A stretch of 64,000 nt of DNA, from positions 1 through 64,000 of the forward strand of contig CANJJS010000014.1 of the NCBI GenBank assembly GCA_947474705.1, in the 5' to 3' direction. The stretch's first letter is position 1. Every line of letters begins with the position of its first letter. The notes beneath the pieces are model-generated. The model was given only the letters and a program-made list of their open reading frames with translations, did no database searches and was not told the origin of the DNA. This document shows, one piece after another, positions 41,571 to 52,039 of the stretch. The stretch is from Acetobacteraceae bacterium. Lineage in GTDB: Bacteria; Pseudomonadota; Alphaproteobacteria; Acetobacterales; Acetobacteraceae. The position numbers and the translations under genes were made by a program.

Positions 41571-41999
41571 TCAGGTTTCGATCTGTAAGCCGTGGCGTTG
41601 GCCATGTGCGGCGGCGAAGCCCGCGATGCGGCTGTCGTACGTGATCAACGGACAGGCATGCTCGATGGCCGTGGCGACGAGCAACAGATCGGCGGGGTCG
41701 CGGTGCGAAAAGTCGCGCAGTTCATAAGCGCGCGCGGCGGCGCGATGGGTCAGCGGCACGGCCTCGACGCCGGGCCGGTCGATGAGGCGTTCGAACCAAA
41801 TGTCCGGTGGAAACGCCAACGCGATCCGCCCAACGCTGACCAATTGCGCGATCTCCCAGGCGGAAATGGCGCTGATCAGGATCGTACCGCCCCGCCGGTG
41901 GCACTTGTCGATCAACCCGCGCGTCGAATGCCGAAGCCGCTCGTCGCCATCGCCCAACCAAAGCGCGATATGCGTATCGAGGAGGATCGCGTCCGTCAC
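41571..41999 (-). CDS. PIN-domain toxin (VapC-like)
   Basis: ILLDTHIALWLGDGDERL..SAISAWEIAQLV..RDPADLLLVATAIEHACPLITYD. Confidence 0.93.
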   Translation of the reverse strand: MTDAILLDTHIALWLGDGDERLRHSTRGLIDKCHRRGGTILISAISAWEIAQLVSVGRIALAFPPDIWFERLIDRPGVEAVPLTHRAAARAYELRDFSHRDPADLLLVATAIEHACPLITYDSRIAGFAAAHGQRHGLQIET

Positions 42000-43580: not shown

Positions 43581-44285
43581 ATGGACGCTTCTTTCTGGCT
43601 CGAATCCTGGCGCGATGGCGGAACCAAGACCAGCTTCCATCGCCGCGACGTCCATCCCTTCGCGACGCGCTATCTTCCGGCCCATGAACTCGCGGGCAAA
43701 CGAGTCTTCGTCCCCTGCTGCGGCAAGGACAACGTCCTGAATTACTTCCGCGACAACGCGGCCCATGTCGTCGGCGTCGATCTCGCCCGGAGCGCGATCG
43801 AGGAATACATGGCGGACAACGGCATCGCACTCGACGAGGTCGAACCCGGCCGCTTCGAAGGCGACGGCATCACCCTGCTGGCCCGCGACCTGTTCGCCCT
43901 GACGGCGGACGACCTTGGCGCCATCGACATCGTCTGGGACCGCGCCTCTTTGATCGCCTTCCCCGACGAGGGCCCGGACAGCCTCCGTCAACGCTACATC
44001 CGTAAGATGCACGACCTGCTGTCCCCCGGCGCCCGCATCCTGCTGGTCACGCTGGAATACGGCCCGATCATGCCGGAACCGCCCTTCAGCGTGGACCCCG
44101 CCACGGTGCGCGGCTACTTCGCCGAGGGCTTCGCGGTCGATCACATCCTCGACGACGCCCAGCCCAATCACCGCATGGTCGAGAAATTCGGCCTGCGCTT
44201 CTTCAGCGAACATGCCTTCGAAATGACCCGCCGCGGAGAAAAGCGGCACGACGGCGCCCGGACCCGGGAACTCGTCGCGGCATAA
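43581..44285 (+). CDS. Thiopurine S-methyltransferase-family methyltransferase
   Basis: FWLESWRDGGTKTSFHRRDVHP; GKRVFVPCCGKDNVLNYFRDNAAHVVGVDLARSAIEEY; DIVWDRASLIAFP. Confidence 0.85.
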   Translation: MDASFWLESWRDGGTKTSFHRRDVHPFATRYLPAHELAGKRVFVPCCGKDNVLNYFRDNAAHVVGVDLARSAIEEYMADNGIALDEVEPGRFEGDGITLLARDLFALTADDLGAIDIVWDRASLIAFPDEGPDSLRQRYIRKMHDLLSPGARILLVTLEYGPIMPEPPFSVDPATVRGYFAEGFAVDHILDDAQPNHRMVEKFGLRFFSEHAFEMTRRGEKRHDGARTRELVAA

Positions 44286-44298
44286 ACGCCACGCGACA

Positions 44299-44331
44299 CG
44301 CCTCGCCCCGGCCGGGCGAGGCGCCGTTTTT
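44299..44331 (+). terminator. Rho-independent terminator
   Basis: CGCCTCGCCC-CGGCC-GGGCGAGGCG-CCGTTTTT. Confidence 0.85.
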
Positions 44332-44425
44332 CACCGCCGCCGATTTCATGCTGCATTGCGGCAAAAGCGGCACGGCGCTTGCTTCACGTATTCCGCCACT
44401 CAACCAAACCGATTGCGCGGATCCC

Positions 44426-45049
44426 GTGAAAGTCCTTCTCGCCGACGACGACCCAGGCCGAATCAGTGCCCTGACAGCGGTGCTGTCGGCCGATGGCGGC
44501 CTGACCATCCTACGCCCGAGACCCGGCGAATTGCTGATGGACGCGGTCGCCGCGCTGACCCCCGATATCGTCCTGGTCGATATGGCCCGGCCCGACCGCG
44601 ACGCGCTGGAAGGCATTCGCGCGGTGTCCGCCCATACCCCCCGCCCCATCGCCATGTTCGTCGATCACGACGACCCCGCCTTCATGGAAGAAGCCATCGG
44701 CGCGGGCGTGTCCTCGTACAACATCGCCGGTGTGCCCCCGCCGGATATCAAACCCATCCTGCGCGCCGCGGCCGCCCTGTTCCGCCGCCACCAAACCGCC
44801 CGCGACGAACTCCGCGACGCCGAGGTCCGGCTGCGCGAACGCGCGCTGGTCGATCGCGCCAAGGCCATCCTGATCCGCGAGCGCCGCATCGCCGAACCCG
44901 AGGCCTACCGCCTGCTGCGCAAGCGCGCGATGGGCTCGGGACGGCGCATCCCCGATATCGCGCGCGAAATCGTCGAAACGCACGAACAGCTTACCGCCGC
45001 GCCGGAAACCCCGGCCGGGCCGGACCACGCCAAAGGAGTCTCGCCATGA
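44426..45049 (+). CDS. nasT: ANTAR-domain response regulator, NasT-like
   Basis: KVLLADDDPGRI receiver and C-terminal ANTAR (RLRERALVDRAKAILIRERRIAEPEAYRLLRKRAMGSGRRIPDIAREIV). GTG start proposed; the ORF track starts at 44348. Confidence 0.88.
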   Translation: MKVLLADDDPGRISALTAVLSADGGLTILRPRPGELLMDAVAALTPDIVLVDMARPDRDALEGIRAVSAHTPRPIAMFVDHDDPAFMEEAIGAGVSSYNIAGVPPPDIKPILRAAAALFRRHQTARDELRDAEVRLRERALVDRAKAILIRERRIAEPEAYRLLRKRAMGSGRRIPDIAREIVETHEQLTAAPETPAGPDHAKGVSP

Positions 45050-46179
45050 GCACCCGTGTTCGCATCGGCATGTTGCGCCTCGCGGATTCCGCGCCCGTGG
45101 CGGTGGCGAAAGCCGGCAACCTCTTCAAACCCCTCGCCATCGACCCCGTTCTTTCCATCGAGCCCTCCTGGGCGAATCTCGCCGACAAACTCACCTACGG
45201 GCTCCTGGACGCGGCGGTGATGCTGCCACCGCTCGCTTTGTCCCTGGCAATCGGCCTTCGCGGGCCACGGGCGGACGTGATCGTTCCGATGGGTCTGTCG
45301 CAGGGCGGCAATACCATCGTGTTGCGGGGCGAAACGCCGGGCGCGGAGACCGAATTGCCACCGGGGTCGCGGCTTTTGACCTGGCTCGCGCGCCAGCCCA
45401 AACCCCCGCGCATCGCGGTTGTGCATCGCTATTCCACCCATAACCTACTGCTGCGCTACTGGCTGGCGTTAACCGGCGTGGATCCCGATCGCGACATAGA
45501 GACCGTGGTGGTGCCGCCGGAACTGGTGGTCGAGGCGCTGGCGAACGGCCAGATCGACGGGTTTTGCGCGGGCGCCCCCTGGGGGACGGCGGCGCGCCTG
45601 TCCGGCGCCGGCGAGGTACTGCTGGGCACCTCCGACATCTGGCCCTTTCACCCGGAAAAATGTCTCGCGGTCCGTGCCGGCTGGGCCGCCGCGCACCCCG
45701 AGGCCCTGACCCGTTTGCTACGGGCGCTCATGCGCGCGCAGGTCCTGTGCGACCAGCCCGGCGAGGCCGATTGGGTCGCGGAGGTGCTGGCCGATCCGGA
45801 GGGGCTTGCCTTGCCGCGCGCCGCGACCCGCGCGGCTTTGCCGGGCCACGGCGGTCCAGGTGGGGGGACAGGTGGGGGGACAGGTGGGGGGGCAGGTGGA
45901 GGAGCGGCGCACGAGCATATCTTGTTCCACGTCGCGGGCGCCGCGCACCCGGCGCCACCGCATGGGCTTTGGTTCTTACGGCAAATGCGCCGCTGGGGAT
46001 GGCTGGACGAGGGGTTGGACCTGGCCGCAACGGTCGCATCGGTCTACCGCCCCGACCTTTATTCGTTGGCCGCACGCATGGAAGACCTGTTCGCGGTGCC
46101 GCCCCACGCGCGCGGCCATGCCGCGTTCGCCACCGGTTTGGCGTTCGCCGGTCCGGCCAACGCCATGCCCTCGCGCTGA
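45046..46179 (+). CDS. nasS: Nitrate/bicarbonate-binding protein-like sensor, NasS-like (CmpA/NrtA family)
   Basis: VRIGMLRLADSAPVAVAKAGNLF, LTYGLLDAAVMLPPLALSLAIGL, GAPWGTAA; no signal peptide; ATGA overlap with nasT. Confidence 0.87.
   Translation: MSTRVRIGMLRLADSAPVAVAKAGNLFKPLAIDPVLSIEPSWANLADKLTYGLLDAAVMLPPLALSLAIGLRGPRADVIVPMGLSQGGNTIVLRGETPGAETELPPGSRLLTWLARQPKPPRIAVVHRYSTHNLLLRYWLALTGVDPDRDIETVVVPPELVVEALANGQIDGFCAGAPWGTAARLSGAGEVLLGTSDIWPFHPEKCLAVRAGWAAAHPEALTRLLRALMRAQVLCDQPGEADWVAEVLADPEGLALPRAATRAALPGHGGPGGGTGGGTGGGAGGGAAHEHILFHVAGAAHPAPPHGLWFLRQMRRWGWLDEGLDLAATVASVYRPDLYSLAARMEDLFAVPPHARGHAAFATGLAFAGPANAMPSR
45849..45906 (+). repeat. G-rich 12-nt tandem repeat (about 3-4 units) inside nasS
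   Basis: AGGTGGGGGGAC AGGTGGGGGGAC AGGTGGGGGGGC AGGTGGAGGAGC, encoding GGGTGGGTGGGAGGG. Confidence 0.95.
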
Positions 46180-46278
46180 AAAGACCAATATTTAATCATA
46201 CGACCAACTTATGATCACATCCACCCGCCACCACCGCCGCCGCGAGCATAAATTATAATCAAATCCGCCTTTCGAACC

Positions 46279-46294
46279 TGGCATCATTCTTGCT
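46279..46294 (+). promoter_or_regulatory. Candidate sigma54 (-24/-12) promoter for the nirB operon
   Basis: TGGCATCATTCTTGCT: GG and GC elements with 10 nt between, matching the TGGCA-N6-TTGC layout. Confidence 0.65.
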
Positions 46295-46338
46295 GCGATA
46301 GCGAAGAGAGGCGCGCCACATTCGGCGTATGCCAGACA

Positions 46339-46392
46339 CCACTCCCCTCAAAGGCGAGACGGGGTGGAAGGCAGGAGCGACAGACCCGCTCC
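46339..46392 (+). promoter_or_regulatory. Candidate ANTAR (NasT-type) RNA target: two tandem hairpins with hexaloops
   Basis: CCAC(T)CCC CTC-AAAGGC-GAG(AC)GGGGTGG and GGAGCG-ACAGAC-(C)CGCTCC; both hexaloops have A at position 1 and G at position 4. Confidence 0.72.
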
Positions 46393-46617
46393 CACCCAAT
46401 GACCGACGGGTCAACGACGATCCGTCCGATCGGTGTGAATGTCATGAATCAGCGTTTTCTCCCCTTCGACTCCGCGCGGAACCGGTTCGCGCCCCCGGCG
46501 TGTTTCGCCAACGCATCCCAAAACCGAGGCGATCGCCGCCCGGCCCCCGCGCGCCCGCCGGGACACGGGCGCGCGACACTGTCCGGCCCGGCCGAAATTT
46601 AAGCGAGGAGACACATC

Positions 46618-49062
46618 GTGAACATGATCGCCAAAATCCCCGCCCGCCGCCGCCTGATCCTGATCGGCAACGGCATGGCCGGCGTCCGCGCCCTGGAAGA
46701 AATCCTGACCCGCGCCCCCGATGTCTTCGACATAACCGTCTTCGGCGCCGAGCCGCACGGCAACTACAACCGCATCATGCTGTCCCCGGTCCTCGCCGGC
46801 GAAAAAACCTTCTCCGACATCGTCACCCACGACCGCGACTGGTACGAAACCAACGCCATCGAACTGATCGCGGGCGAGGCCGCCGCCACGATCGACCGCG
46901 ACGCGAAGACCGTGACCGGCGCCAACGGCACCGTCCGGCCCTACGACGCCCTGATCCTCGCCACCGGTTCCAACCCCGTCATCATCCCCTTCCCCGGCCA
47001 CGACCTTCCGGGCGTCATCGCCTTCCGCGACATCGGCGACGTCGACACGATGCTGGCGGCCAGCCGCACCGGCACCCATGCCGTCGTCATCGGCGGCGGT
47101 CTGCTCGGCCTGGAAGCCGCGAACGGGCTCGCCCGCAACGGCATGGACACGACCGTCCTTCACCTGATGCCCACGCTGATGGAACGCCAGCTCGATCCCG
47201 TCTCCGCCGGGCTTCTGAAAAAGGATCTGGGCCATCGCGGCATGACCGTGCTGACCGAGGCCAACACCAAGGCCATCCACGGCGCCGGCAAGGTCGAGAC
47301 GGTGGAACTCGCCGACGGCACCATGCTGAAAGCCGACCTCGTCGTCATGGCCGTCGGCATCCGCCCCAACACCGCGCTGGCCAAATCCGCCGGACTCGAC
47401 ATCGGCCGCGGCGTCAAAGTGGACGACTTCATGCGGACGTCCGACCCCGCCATCTACGCGGTCGGCGAGTGTGTGGAACATAACGGAGCCGTCTTCGGCC
47501 TGGTCGCGCCCTTGTTCGACATGGCGAAAATCCTCGCCGACCACGTCACGAACACCGCCGAAACCCCCTACATCCCCGCCGTTACCGGCACCCGCCTGAA
47601 AGTCACGGGAATCGATATGTTCTCCGCCGGCGACTTCACCGGAGACGACACCACCGACGACGTGATTTTCCGGGATGCCGCCCGCGGCGTGCACAAACAC
47701 CTCACCATTCGCGACAACAAACTCATCGGCGCCGTCCTGTATGGCGAGGCCGCCGACAGCGGCTGGTATTTCGATCTGATCCGCCGCGGCGCCGACATTT
47801 CCGATATTCGCGACATGCTGGTCTTCGGACCCGGTGTCGCCGGTGGCGGCGACTCCGGCGTCGAATCCCTTCCCGACACGGCGGAAATTTGCGGCTGCAA
47901 CGGCGTGTCCAAGGGACGCATCCTGACCGCCATCGCCGAACTGAAACTGACCAGCGTCGACGAGGTCCGCGCCCGCACCAAAGCCTCGGCGTCCTGCGGC
48001 AGTTGCACCTGCAACGTGGAAAAGCTCCTGCAATTCGCGCTTGGCGACGGCTACGACGCCACGCCCAAAATCAAAGCCATGTGCAAATGCACGGCACATG
48101 GGCACGACGCCGTGCGCGCGGCGATCGTGGAACGGCGGCTGAAATCCATACCCGCCGTCATGCGCGCCCTCGACTGGGTGTCCCCCGACGGCTGCGCCAG
48201 TTGCCGGCCCGCCCTCAACTTTTATCTCCTTTGCGCCTGGCCGGGCGAATACGCGGACGACGCCCGCTCACGCTTCGTCAACGAACGCATGCACGCCAAT
48301 ATCCAGAAAGACGGCACTTATTCCGTGGTGCCGCGGATGTGGGGCGGGGTTACCTCCGCCAAGGAACTGCGCGCGATCGCCGATGTCGTGGACAAGTACG
48401 ACATTCCCACGGTGAAAGTCACGGGAGGGCAGCGCATCGACCTGCTCGGCGTGCGCAAGGAACAACTCCCGCATGTCTGGCGCGACCTGAACGCCGCCGG
48501 AATGGTCTCGGGACACGCCTACGGCAAGGCGCTCCGCACCGTGAAAACCTGCGTCGGATCGGAATGGTGCCGCTTCGGCACCCAGGACTCGACCGCCATG
48601 GGCGTCGCGCTGGAGAAAATGACCTGGGGGTCCTGGACCCCGCATAAAACCAAAATGGCCGTCTCCGGCTGCCCGCGCAATTGCGCCGAAGCCACCATCA
48701 AGGACTTCGGAGTCATCGCCACCGAAAGCGGCTGGGACCTCCACGCCGGCGGCAACGGCGGCATCACCGTCCGCGTCACCGACCTCCTCGCGAAAGTCTC
48801 GACCGAAGAAGAGGTCCTGGAATACGCCGCCGCCTTCATGCAGCTTTACCGCGAGGAAGCCCGCTACCTCGAACGCACCGCGCCCTGGATCGAACGCGTG
48901 GGAGTCGCGTACGTCCGCGACCGCCTCTCCGACGCCGGCGGCCGCCGCCTGTTGCGCGACCGTTTCCTCGAATCGCAGCGCCTGGCCCAGTCGGATCCAT
49001 GGGCGGAACGCGCGGAGGGCGCGGAAAGCCACGAGTTCCGCTCTCTCGCGACGGTGGAGTAA
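46618..49062 (+). CDS. nirB: Assimilatory nitrite reductase large subunit
   Basis: LILIGNGMAGVRALEEIL; BFD-like CGCNGVSKG; siroheme/4Fe-4S motif TVKTCVGSEWCRFGTQDS..VSGCPRNCAEA. Confidence 0.97.
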   Translation: MNMIAKIPARRRLILIGNGMAGVRALEEILTRAPDVFDITVFGAEPHGNYNRIMLSPVLAGEKTFSDIVTHDRDWYETNAIELIAGEAAATIDRDAKTVTGANGTVRPYDALILATGSNPVIIPFPGHDLPGVIAFRDIGDVDTMLAASRTGTHAVVIGGGLLGLEAANGLARNGMDTTVLHLMPTLMERQLDPVSAGLLKKDLGHRGMTVLTEANTKAIHGAGKVETVELADGTMLKADLVVMAVGIRPNTALAKSAGLDIGRGVKVDDFMRTSDPAIYAVGECVEHNGAVFGLVAPLFDMAKILADHVTNTAETPYIPAVTGTRLKVTGIDMFSAGDFTGDDTTDDVIFRDAARGVHKHLTIRDNKLIGAVLYGEAADSGWYFDLIRRGADISDIRDMLVFGPGVAGGGDSGVESLPDTAEICGCNGVSKGRILTAIAELKLTSVDEVRARTKASASCGSCTCNVEKLLQFALGDGYDATPKIKAMCKCTAHGHDAVRAAIVERRLKSIPAVMRALDWVSPDGCASCRPALNFYLLCAWPGEYADDARSRFVNERMHANIQKDGTYSVVPRMWGGVTSAKELRAIADVVDKYDIPTVKVTGGQRIDLLGVRKEQLPHVWRDLNAAGMVSGHAYGKALRTVKTCVGSEWCRFGTQDSTAMGVALEKMTWGSWTPHKTKMAVSGCPRNCAEATIKDFGVIATESGWDLHAGGNGGITVRVTDLLAKVSTEEEVLEYAAAFMQLYREEARYLERTAPWIERVGVAYVRDRLSDAGGRRLLRDRFLESQRLAQSDPWAERAEGAESHEFRSLATVE

Positions 49063-49067
49063 CGGCC

Positions 49068-49391
49068 ATGACCGAAACCGCCGCCTGGACCCGCGTTGGC
49101 GCGATCGACGACATCCCCATTCTCGGGTCGCGCGTCGTCGCGACCCCCACGGAGGATATCGCGATTTTCCGAACCGCCGGCGACCGTATCTTCGCGCTTT
49201 ACGACCGCTGCCCGCACAAACAGGGCAAATTGTCGCAGGGCATCGTGCACGGCACCGCCGTCACCTGCCCGTTGCATAACTGGGTGATCGGGCTCGACGA
49301 CGGCCTCGCCAAAGACCCCGACGAGGGCTGCGTCGACACCGTCCCCGTCCGGCTGGAGGGACGGGACATTTTCCTGGCGGTGAAACCGTGA
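49068..49391 (+). CDS. nirD: Nitrite reductase small subunit (Rieske type)
   Basis: YDRCPHKQGKLSQGIVHGTAVTCPLHNWVIGL. Confidence 0.95.
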   Translation: MTETAAWTRVGAIDDIPILGSRVVATPTEDIAIFRTAGDRIFALYDRCPHKQGKLSQGIVHGTAVTCPLHNWVIGLDDGLAKDPDEGCVDTVPVRLEGRDIFLAVKP

Positions 49392-52039
49392 CCGAGGTCC
49401 ACACGGCCTGCCCCTATTGCGGGGTCGGCTGCGGGGTCGTGTCGAAATCCGACGGCACGATCGCCGCCGACGCCTCCCACCCCTCCAACCGCGGCCGCCT
49501 CTGCTCCAAAGGCGCCGCCCTGGGCGCAACCCTCGACGACGCCGGACGCCTGCTGAAACCCCAAATCGGCGGCAAGGATGCCTCCTGGGACGACGCGCTG
49601 GGCCTGATCGCGGCGCGGTTCAAACAAACCATCGCCACCCATGGGCCGGACAGCGTCGCCTTCTACGTCTCCGGCCAGTGCCTGACCGAGGATTATTACG
49701 TCGCCAACAAATTGATGAAAGGGTTCATCGGGTCCGGCAACATCGACACCAATTCCCGCCTCTGCATGGCCTCCTCCGTCGCCGGTCACGTCCGTGCCTT
49801 TGGCGAGGACGTCGTCCCCGGCGTCTACGAAGACTGGGAGGAAGCCGACCTGGTTGTCCTCGTCGGCGCCAACGCCGCCTGGTGCCATCCGGTCCTGCAC
49901 CAGCGCCTGATGGCCGCGAAAGCCGCGCACGGCACCAAGATTGTCGTCGTCGACCCCCGCCGCACCGCCACCGCCGACAGCGCCGACATGCACTTGCCCA
50001 TCGCCGCGGGCAGCGACATCGCGCTGTTCAACGGTCTGCTGGCCTACCTGGCCAAGACCGGCAAGATCGACACGGGCTGGGTCCGGGACCACGCATCCGG
50101 CCTCGAGGACGCCCTCGCCGCCGCGGCTGTCCCCGGCCAGGACATCGTCGACGCGGCCGCCGCCGAATGCGGCATCGACCCAGAACTGCTGGAAACCTTC
50201 TACGACATGTTCGCGCGGACGGAGCGGACGATGACCGTTTGGTCCCAGGGCGTGAACCAGTCTTCGGTGGGCACGGACAAGGTCAACGCGATCGTCAACG
50301 TCCATCTCGCCACCGGGCGCATTGGGCGGCCCGGCATGGGTCCTTTCTCGGTCACCGGGCAGCCCAACGCGATGGGCGGGCGGGAGGTCGGCGGTCTGGC
50401 GAATCAACTCGCGGCCCATATGCGTTTCGACGACGCGGAAGACCGCGCCGCGCTCCGGGCATTCTGGCAAGCGCCCATGCTGGCGCCAGGCCCAGGGGTG
50501 AAAGCCGTGGAGATGTTCGATGGGATCGCGGCGGGGACAATCAAGGCGGTCTGGATCGTCGCCACCAACCCGGCCGCCAGCCTGCCGCGCGCCGACCTGG
50601 TCCGCGCCGCGCTGCGCGCCTGCCCCTTCGTCGTCGTCTCCGATTGCTGGAACACCGACACAACGCCATTCGCCGACGTGCTGCTGCCCGCCGCGGCGTG
50701 GGGCGAGAAAGACGGCACCGTCACGAACTCCGAACGCCGCATCTCCCGCCAGCGCCCGTTCCGGCCCGTGCCCGGCGAGGCCCGCCCGGACTGGTGGCAA
50801 TTCGCCGAAATCGGCCGCCGCATGGGCTTCGATCATGAATTCGCCTGGACATCGCCCGCCGCCGTGTTCCGCGAACACGCGGCTTTGTCCGGCCACGCCA
50901 ATAATGGCCGCCGGATTTTCGACATTGGCGCTTTGGCCGGTCTGACGGACGCGGCCTACGACGCCCTGCGCCCCGTCCGCTGGCCGCTGCCCGCCGGCAG
51001 TTCCGGCGAGGGCGGACGGCTGTTCGCCCAAGGCGGTTTCCCAACGCCGGATGGCCGCGCCCGGATCGTGCCGGTCGTCTGGTCCGGCCGCCCCGATCGC
51101 GGCGGCCACCGCTTCCTGCTGAACACCGGCCGCGTCCGCGACCAGTGGCACACCATGACCCGCACCGGCCTCGCGCCCAAACTGATGGCGCACACGCCGG
51201 AACCGCTGCTCGCTCTGCACCCCGCCGACGCCGCGGCGGAGGGCCTCGCGGACAACGCGCTGGCGCGGCTTTCCACCGCCGAGGGCGAGATGTTGATGCG
51301 GGTGAAGATCGAGCACGCGCAGCGGCGCGGCGAAATCTACGCGCCGATGCACTGGACCGACCAGTTCGCCTCCTCCGGCCCCGTCGACCGTGTGGCCGGC
51401 GCGCGGCGCGATCCGATCTCCGGCCAGCCCGAACTGAAGGCGACGCCCGCCAGCCTCGAACCCGTCGCCGCGACGTTTCACGGCACGTTGCTGCGGCGCC
51501 AGAGCGGCCCGTTGCCCGATCTCTGTTACTGGGTGCGCGTTCCGCTGCCGGAGGGGCAAATGTACCGCCTCACCGGTCTGCGCCCCTTGCCCATGGGCGA
51601 CGATCTGTCCCGCTTCGCCGCGGCCTTGCTGCCGATGCCGGACGGCGCCGAGTGGCTGGAGGTGTCCGACCCCAAACGCGGCACGCTCCGGGTCGCGATC
51701 CTCGTGGATGGCGCGGTCGAGGCGGCGCTGTTTCTGACCCGCGATCCCGCCACCCTGCCCGCCGAGGCGGCGCTGACCCCGATCCTTGGCGCGCCGGTCC
51801 CCGACACGGCCCGCGGCCGCCTGCTCGCGGGCAGGCTCTACGACAAGACCGCGGCGGAGGGGCCGCGCGTCTGCGCCTGCTTCGGCGTCACCCGCGACGC
51901 CGTCCGCCATGCCGTCGTCACCCACCGGCTGCGCACCCGCGAGGAAATCGGCGTCGTCCTTGGCGCCGGGACCAATTGCGGGTCCTGCATCCCCGAACTC
52001 GAGGAGATCCTGCGCGATGTCCGCATGCCCGCGTCCTGA
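49388..52039 (+). CDS. nasA: Assimilatory nitrate reductase catalytic subunit with C-terminal BFD-like [2Fe-2S] region
   Basis: CPYCGVGCGVVSKSDG; molybdopterin oxidoreductase; C-terminal RVCACFGVTRDAVRHAV..TNCGSCIPELEEIL. Confidence 0.96.
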   Translation: MTEVHTACPYCGVGCGVVSKSDGTIAADASHPSNRGRLCSKGAALGATLDDAGRLLKPQIGGKDASWDDALGLIAARFKQTIATHGPDSVAFYVSGQCLTEDYYVANKLMKGFIGSGNIDTNSRLCMASSVAGHVRAFGEDVVPGVYEDWEEADLVVLVGANAAWCHPVLHQRLMAAKAAHGTKIVVVDPRRTATADSADMHLPIAAGSDIALFNGLLAYLAKTGKIDTGWVRDHASGLEDALAAAAVPGQDIVDAAAAECGIDPELLETFYDMFARTERTMTVWSQGVNQSSVGTDKVNAIVNVHLATGRIGRPGMGPFSVTGQPNAMGGREVGGLANQLAAHMRFDDAEDRAALRAFWQAPMLAPGPGVKAVEMFDGIAAGTIKAVWIVATNPAASLPRADLVRAALRACPFVVVSDCWNTDTTPFADVLLPAAAWGEKDGTVTNSERRISRQRPFRPVPGEARPDWWQFAEIGRRMGFDHEFAWTSPAAVFREHAALSGHANNGRRIFDIGALAGLTDAAYDALRPVRWPLPAGSSGEGGRLFAQGGFPTPDGRARIVPVVWSGRPDRGGHRFLLNTGRVRDQWHTMTRTGLAPKLMAHTPEPLLALHPADAAAEGLADNALARLSTAEGEMLMRVKIEHAQRRGEIYAPMHWTDQFASSGPVDRVAGARRDPISGQPELKATPASLEPVAATFHGTLLRRQSGPLPDLCYWVRVPLPEGQMYRLTGLRPLPMGDDLSRFAAALLPMPDGAEWLEVSDPKRGTLRVAILVDGAVEAALFLTRDPATLPAEAALTPILGAPVPDTARGRLLAGRLYDKTAAEGPRVCACFGVTRDAVRHAVVTHRLRTREEIGVVLGAGTNCGSCIPELEEILRDVRMPAS

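Follow-up and report, generated by a model that had tools for sequence, protein, structure and literature searches.

A bridged two-hexaloop RNA element, probably a NasT target, in the nirB leader of an Acetobacteraceae bacterium

In the leader preceding nirB in an Acetobacteraceae bacterium, we have identified an RNA element with two hexaloop hairpins, P1 and P3, whose recognition by the ANTAR-domain protein NasT is well supported and, judging from sequence comparison, very probable. Compared with other ANTAR target RNAs, the element is a variant in both spacing and output, and it recurs in the nitrate assimilation operons of the Acetobacteraceae. Its hairpins are conserved and covary, it occupies a single site in its genome, and no recognisable terminator accompanies it. 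A probable NasT target before nirB had been proposed in the initial annotation of this DNA, and the proposal is supported by the conserved hexaloops of P1 and P3 and by a NasT carrying the residues that contact G4.

The locus, its promoter and its NasT

The window (the whole stretch of DNA that was analysed, 64,000 nt) is part of an Acetobacteraceae genome and has the gene order nasT - nasS - leader - nirB - nirD - nasA-like nitrate reductase - cobA/cysG-like gene. Its features are as follows.

44348..45049, + strand: nasT, receiver and ANTAR domains (PF03861 and PF00072); the precise start is uncertain, with homology seen from about 44420
45046..46179, + strand: nasS, NMT1_2/NrtA-like (PF13379), presumed nitrate sensor and NasT partner
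46279..46294, + strand: sigma54-type (-24/-12) promoter TGGCATCATTCTTGCT, with correct GG-N10-GC spacing and an inferred +1 near 46305
46339..46367, + strand: P1, first candidate NasT/ANTAR hexaloop hairpin; loop AAAGGC at 46350-46355, C:G closing pair, -12.8 kcal/mol
46374..46392, + strand: M, bridging hairpin GGAGCG-ACAGACC-CGCUCC (hairpin 2 of the initial annotation); not an ANTAR hexaloop, G:C closing pair
46405..46426, + strand: P3, second candidate NasT/ANTAR hexaloop hairpin; GACGGGUC-AACGAC-GAUCCGUC, loop at 46413-46418, C:G closing pair
46444..46602, + strand: possible leader ORF of 52 codons (MNQRFLPFDS...), ATG 25 nt past the P3 loop, no Pfam match, putatively coding
46605..46610, + strand: Shine-Dalgarno-like GAGGAG of nirB, 7 nt before the GTG at 46618
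46618..49062, + strand: nirB, nitrite reductase large subunit (TIGR02374), the first full-length gene downstream of the leader
49068-49391, + strand: nirD (TIGR02378), after nirB
49388-52039, + strand: nasA-like nitrate reductase (PF00384 and Fer2_BFD)
from about 52026, + strand: cobA/cysG-like gene (TIGR01469)

NasT, with its receiver and ANTAR domains, is coded together with an NrtA-like NasS beside nas genes, the arrangement by which a NasS-NasT system is recognised, and the nasT-nasS order is also present in relatives. A NasT-like gene had been placed just upstream of the leader; it is indeed upstream, although nasS stands between the two. The single ANTAR match in the genome is this nasT adjoining the leader, and its product is presumably the reader of the element. 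The ANTAR region of NasT aligns gap-free to EutV (6wsh/6ww6), in which Arg142, Lys149, Glu160 and Tyr164 contact or flip G4 and Met172 forms the plug (PMC8934654). In the residue mapping made in this analysis, where chain and paper numbering are offset by two, these four residues and the Met172 plug are identical in NasT at the same numbers, and EutV Lys147 is replaced by Arg.

Two side observations concern the neighbouring genes. NasS contains a glycine-rich low-complexity insert at residues of about 268-292 (GHGGPGGGTGGGTGGGAGGGAAHEH). Further upstream in the window, at 41571-41999 on the - strand, lies a PIN-domain (VapC-like) gene preceded by a small overlapping ORF that ends near 41996 on the same strand and has no Pfam match; together they probably form a toxin-antitoxin pair.

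The sigma54-like promoter had been described with correct -24/-12 spacing and with the first hairpin about 35 nt past the predicted start. Both statements agree with the sequence, P1 lying about 34 nt past the inferred +1. Moreover, among 22 loci examined, 12 have a strict TGGC-N7-TTGC site in the 85 nt preceding the element, against 0.18 expected; these loci were found by the RNA model alone, the promoter not being used, and the expectation is the background rate of the same loci. The promoter is thus a conserved companion of the RNA element, and a sigma54 gene is present in the genome. A search of 44000-46300 for a simple NtrC-like palindrome found none.

The hexaloop pair and its conservation

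A scan of the leader for hexaloops of the form A..G.. returned P1 (46350), the hairpin of the initial annotation (46380) and P3, which that annotation had overlooked. P1 and P3 both have the characters of ANTAR dual-hexaloop RNAs, namely 6-nt loops with A1 and G4, each closed by a C:G pair. The P3 stem is unbroken over 8 bp (-11.7 kcal/mol). The upper stem of P1 in the window is short and bulged, and its formation probability in the full-length fold of the window leader is 0.16. Among 44 leaders, which were selected by the covariance model, A1 is invariant in both loops and G4 is found in 43 (P1) and 44 (P3); for P3 the closing C and closing G are likewise present in all 44. The resulting loop consensus, C-AANGNN-G with position 3 free, holds for both hairpins, in a set (n=44) selected by a model that favours such loops. 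For NasR, SELEX yielded as its optimum a hexaloop closed by C:G and bearing A1 and G4 (PMC7496416), which P1 and P3 fit and the G:C-closed M does not, giving independent support for P1 and P3 as the pair. On the + strand of the window 42 loose A1/G4 hexaloop pairs were counted, and the only one of them as stable as -20 kcal/mol belongs to the leader. Two unrelated pairs of the - strand also attain this value, so energy alone is not decisive and conservation is.

An unguided column-pair search on the 21 leaders of the training alignment (the window included, all picked for their hexaloops and related in sequence) recovers the three helices P1, M and P3, with a covariation score of 0.439 against 0.238 when shuffled and at most 0.206 when slid. 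The 44 leaders, likewise related and in an alignment fitted to the model, score 0.441, compared with 0.207 after shuffling and no more than 0.153 after sliding, and double-changed cells number 121 against 46.6. P1 is paired in 86.5% and P3 in 90.6% across the 44 leaders, with both-sided changes in five of six and six of seven pairs, respectively. The helix of M covaries too (both-sided changes in four of five pairs, 75% paired), and relatives carry a GC hairpin of variable sequence between P1 and P3.

The initial annotation had read P1 and the hairpin at 46374-46392 as directly adjacent tandem hexaloops, AAAGGC and ACAGAC, both with A1 and G4, and had proposed that GACCCG (46383-46388) pairs with CGGGTC (46407-46412) in a mutually exclusive fold. 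Such a model has in its favour that ACAGAC does carry A1 and G4 and adjoins P1, and that the complementarity exists. AAAGGC stands as a hexaloop of the pair, but ACAGAC does not: M prefers the 7-nt loop ACAGACC (-9.1 kcal/mol) over the bulged hexaloop (-5.9 kcal/mol) by 3.2 kcal/mol, it is closed by G:C, and an A1/G4 hexaloop at its position occurs in none of the 37 leaders of the long-spaced class. The stem, of at least 5 bp, is retained in 32 of these 37 (combined shuffle p about 1e-7, a value that ignores the relatedness of the sequences). The true second hexaloop is that of P3, parted from P1 by M and kept in 44 leaders, and so the tandem arrangement is not adjacent. As for the competing fold, it was calculated over 46360-46430 at -17.0 against -29.7 kcal/mol, about 12.7 kcal/mol worse. 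Nor is it conserved in relatives, where the longest duplex that the bridge region can form with the 5' arm of P3 measures 5.04, against 5.15 in shuffled sequences. The earlier model is, therefore, very improbable.

In its own genome (5.48 Mb, cutoff E = 1) the leader is the sole match of the covariance model (E 7.7e-6, 56.3 bits), the window being among the training sequences, and each of the 44 loci gives exactly one match. Matches are found in 39 of 398 Acetobacteraceae genomes and in 20 of 102 genera, and those inspected adjoin nas/nir genes in nearly all cases; the exceptions are L203, which is weak and resembles coding sequence, and L209, where the short stretch examined lacks a nas gene. 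Among about 380 genomes of the class from other families, a single one has a match, with a sigma54 site and the transporter-nirB order, and a phylum-wide draw of 399 genomes gave no match besides the window's own. These large searches used strict filters, by which weak matches may be lost. The Rfam scan that the initial annotation proposed as a check returned no match above the gathering score and nothing relevant at E up to 10. We also observed that in the nrtA-type clusters of the family (L051, L052, L055-L057, L201, L206 and L207) the hexaloop leader is situated between nasT and nasS, not after nasS, mostly with shorter spacing.

Spacing and the missing terminator

The linker between P1 and P3 in the window is 37 nt long and is spanned by M; with M folded, about 18 nt would stay unpaired. 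The 37 leaders of the long-spaced class, the doubtful L203 among them, have an A1-to-A1 distance of 54-67 nt and a median unpaired linker of about 19 nt, and in seven other Acetobacteraceae leaders (L199, L201, L205-L209) the A1 spacing is 40-49 nt. Linkers in eut RNAs measure 5-12 nt, and lengthening to 14 nt already impairs the EutV response (PMC3369931); a curated actinobacterial search reported linkers of 2-25 nt (PMC8164766). Since the bridged 37-nt linker lies outside both published ranges, the element is classed as a variant and not as a canonical ANTAR target.

The canonical NasT leaders used for comparison were gathered from NasT loci of other Alphaproteobacteria. Their loop spacing is about 29-47 nt (one of 55), and in 11 or more of the roughly 17 credible cases an intrinsic terminator follows 55-90 nt past the second loop. 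The same kind of scan found a hairpin followed by a U-tract in none of the 44 unique leaders of the window's set. The lack of a U-tract after the hairpins, noted earlier, is confirmed, and it extends to any classical intrinsic terminator on the + strand of the window leader; hence the switching mechanism is probably not the textbook one. In three of the canonical alphaproteobacterial leaders with a terminator (L251, L254 and L255), a possible third A1/G4 hexaloop was seen downstream of the pair, near the terminator.

Likenesses to known systems are several. According to PMC12830290, the NalA leader of Pseudomonas is a sigma54-dependent RNA before nirBD, under NasT-NasS control and in an operon with cobA, much as in the window; its terminator hairpin, as reviewed there (Romeo 2012, Nie 2024), is opened by NasT, whereas no terminator was found here. 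The window element resembles the ANTAR dual-hexaloop RNAs (Ramesh 2012, PMC3369931; Mehta 2021, PMC8164766) in its two hexaloop hairpins, A1/G4 and C:G closing pair, and differs from them in the 37-nt linker bridged by a hairpin and in the lack of an overlapping terminator. In Paracoccus denitrificans (PMC5424462, PMC3795266), nasTS are likewise followed by a two-hairpin leader, that of nasA, which NasT binds; mutation of hairpin HI abolishes growth on nitrate and that of HII has little effect. The nasA leader is, however, described as controlling transcription termination, unlike the leader in the window. Finally, in mycobacterial and actinobacterial ANTAR RNAs (PMC8164766) the element lies near or over the start region and the read-out is at translation rather than at a terminator. 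The ANTAR protein represses there, while activation would be expected here from NasT systems.

Read-out at the first start codon and its alternatives

In most relatives a narK-type transporter gene stands between nasS and nirB; this first gene codes for an MFS-type nitrate/nitrite transporter and starts 20-61 nt past the P3 loop. This gene is absent from 46180-46617 of the window, and the best match to it elsewhere in the genome is just 26% identical. Its place, where relatives begin the transporter, is occupied by the 52-codon ORF, whose stop lies 15 nt before nirB. An ATG at 23-25 nt past the P3 loop is shared by four transporter-less leaders, the window, L075, L087 and L189; in the latter three the ORFs have 18-32 codons and a stop overlapping the nirB start (ATGA). 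The leader start site is either part of the regulated unit, with nirB coupled to it, or a relic of transporter loss. Inside the 52-codon ORF, shortly before nirB, we noted a 10-bp GC hairpin at about 46547-46574 (CGCGCGCCCG...CGGGCGCGCG) without a U-tract.

The overall explanation that we favour, with about an even chance of being correct, is a two-part NasT target with control at the first start codon. The sigma54-type promoter at 46279-46294 would give a transcript leading into nirB and carrying the hexaloops AAAGGC (P1) and AACGAC (P3), both C:G-closed and kept close by M. By analogy with Paracoccus, where nitrate or nitrite triggers release of NasT from NasS (PMC3795266), NasS would sense nitrate or nitrite and free NasT, which would bind P1 and P3 and switch the operon on. 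The read-out in Acetobacteraceae leaders would not be an intrinsic terminator. Because P3 is placed closely before the first start codon, this is most likely where NasT acts. It may do so by raising translation of the frame that opens there (that of the transporter in relatives, the short leader ORF in the window), and nirB would follow through coupling or relief of polarity. The translational step is the weakest part of this explanation. The nirB gene of the window has a good Shine-Dalgarno of its own, the leader ORF may be a transporter relic, and the characterised NasT and NasR systems work by antitermination (NasR: PMC7496416). Forcing P1 and P3 to form changes the cost of opening the start region by a median of -0.07 kcal/mol over 37 leaders (7 eased, 6 hindered), so that no simple sequestration switch is predicted; sequestration of the ribosome-binding site relieved by P1/P3 formation was accordingly set aside, having no consistent effect. 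The hexaloops are cheap to form in most leaders, hence no strong competing fold is evident. Two further pairings were tried: in L094 the sequence just before the start codon complements the 5' arm of P3 perfectly (GATGGGTC/GACCCATC), as in a switch, and in Rhodopila-like leaders the P3 5' arm appeared by eye to pair with the start of the transporter gene. Neither is general.

Protection from Rho ranks below control at the first start codon as a read-out, and intrinsic termination is unlikely. With the same P1 and P3 target, NasT could prevent Rho-dependent (or another U-tract-independent) termination in the leader or early operon. This is a tentative reading, in keeping with the role of NasT elsewhere as an antiterminator and with the untranslated leader before the first start codon, and it needs neither a U-tract nor the sequestration switch that the calculations do not predict. 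Against it, the tests made here identified neither a terminator nor a rut-type site, the untranslated stretch measures merely about 130-140 nt, and the start site retained near P3 is left unexplained. A canonical attenuator invisible to our scans, such as the U-tract-less GC hairpin near 46547-46574, is improbable. That hairpin is strong and stands between the window leader and nirB, and NasT leaders in other families do use terminators, but in relatives the coding sequence begins so soon after the P3 loop that there is no room for it, and none of the 44 leaders has a hairpin with a U-tract. Still harder to credit is a decaying copy, out of function in this genome since the transporter was lost. 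The missing transporter, the short and bulged upper stem of P1 and the relic-like ORF would suit it, yet the sole genome match has its two loops and their closing pairs, the bridge and the sigma54 site all intact, and the element is also kept in three other transporter-less loci.

The element bears on how ANTAR targets are defined. Published models ask for a pair of hexaloops set close together and, as a rule, for a terminator; this element, widespread in the Acetobacteraceae, departs from them on both counts although its recognition chemistry is kept exactly, and it would escape existing search models and Rfam. With it one could test directly how a pair of hexaloops is read by an ANTAR dimer or oligomer (the linker puzzle, PMC8934654), and the element points to a NasT output that is not antitermination at an intrinsic terminator. 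Perhaps, and we put this forward as a rather doubtful possibility, the Acetobacteraceae turned the NasT antiterminator into a terminator-free element, with bridged hexaloops beside the start codon and an ANTAR protein activating translation of the first ORF. If this is true, a switch in which an ANTAR protein acts positively, and on translation, would count as a new mode.
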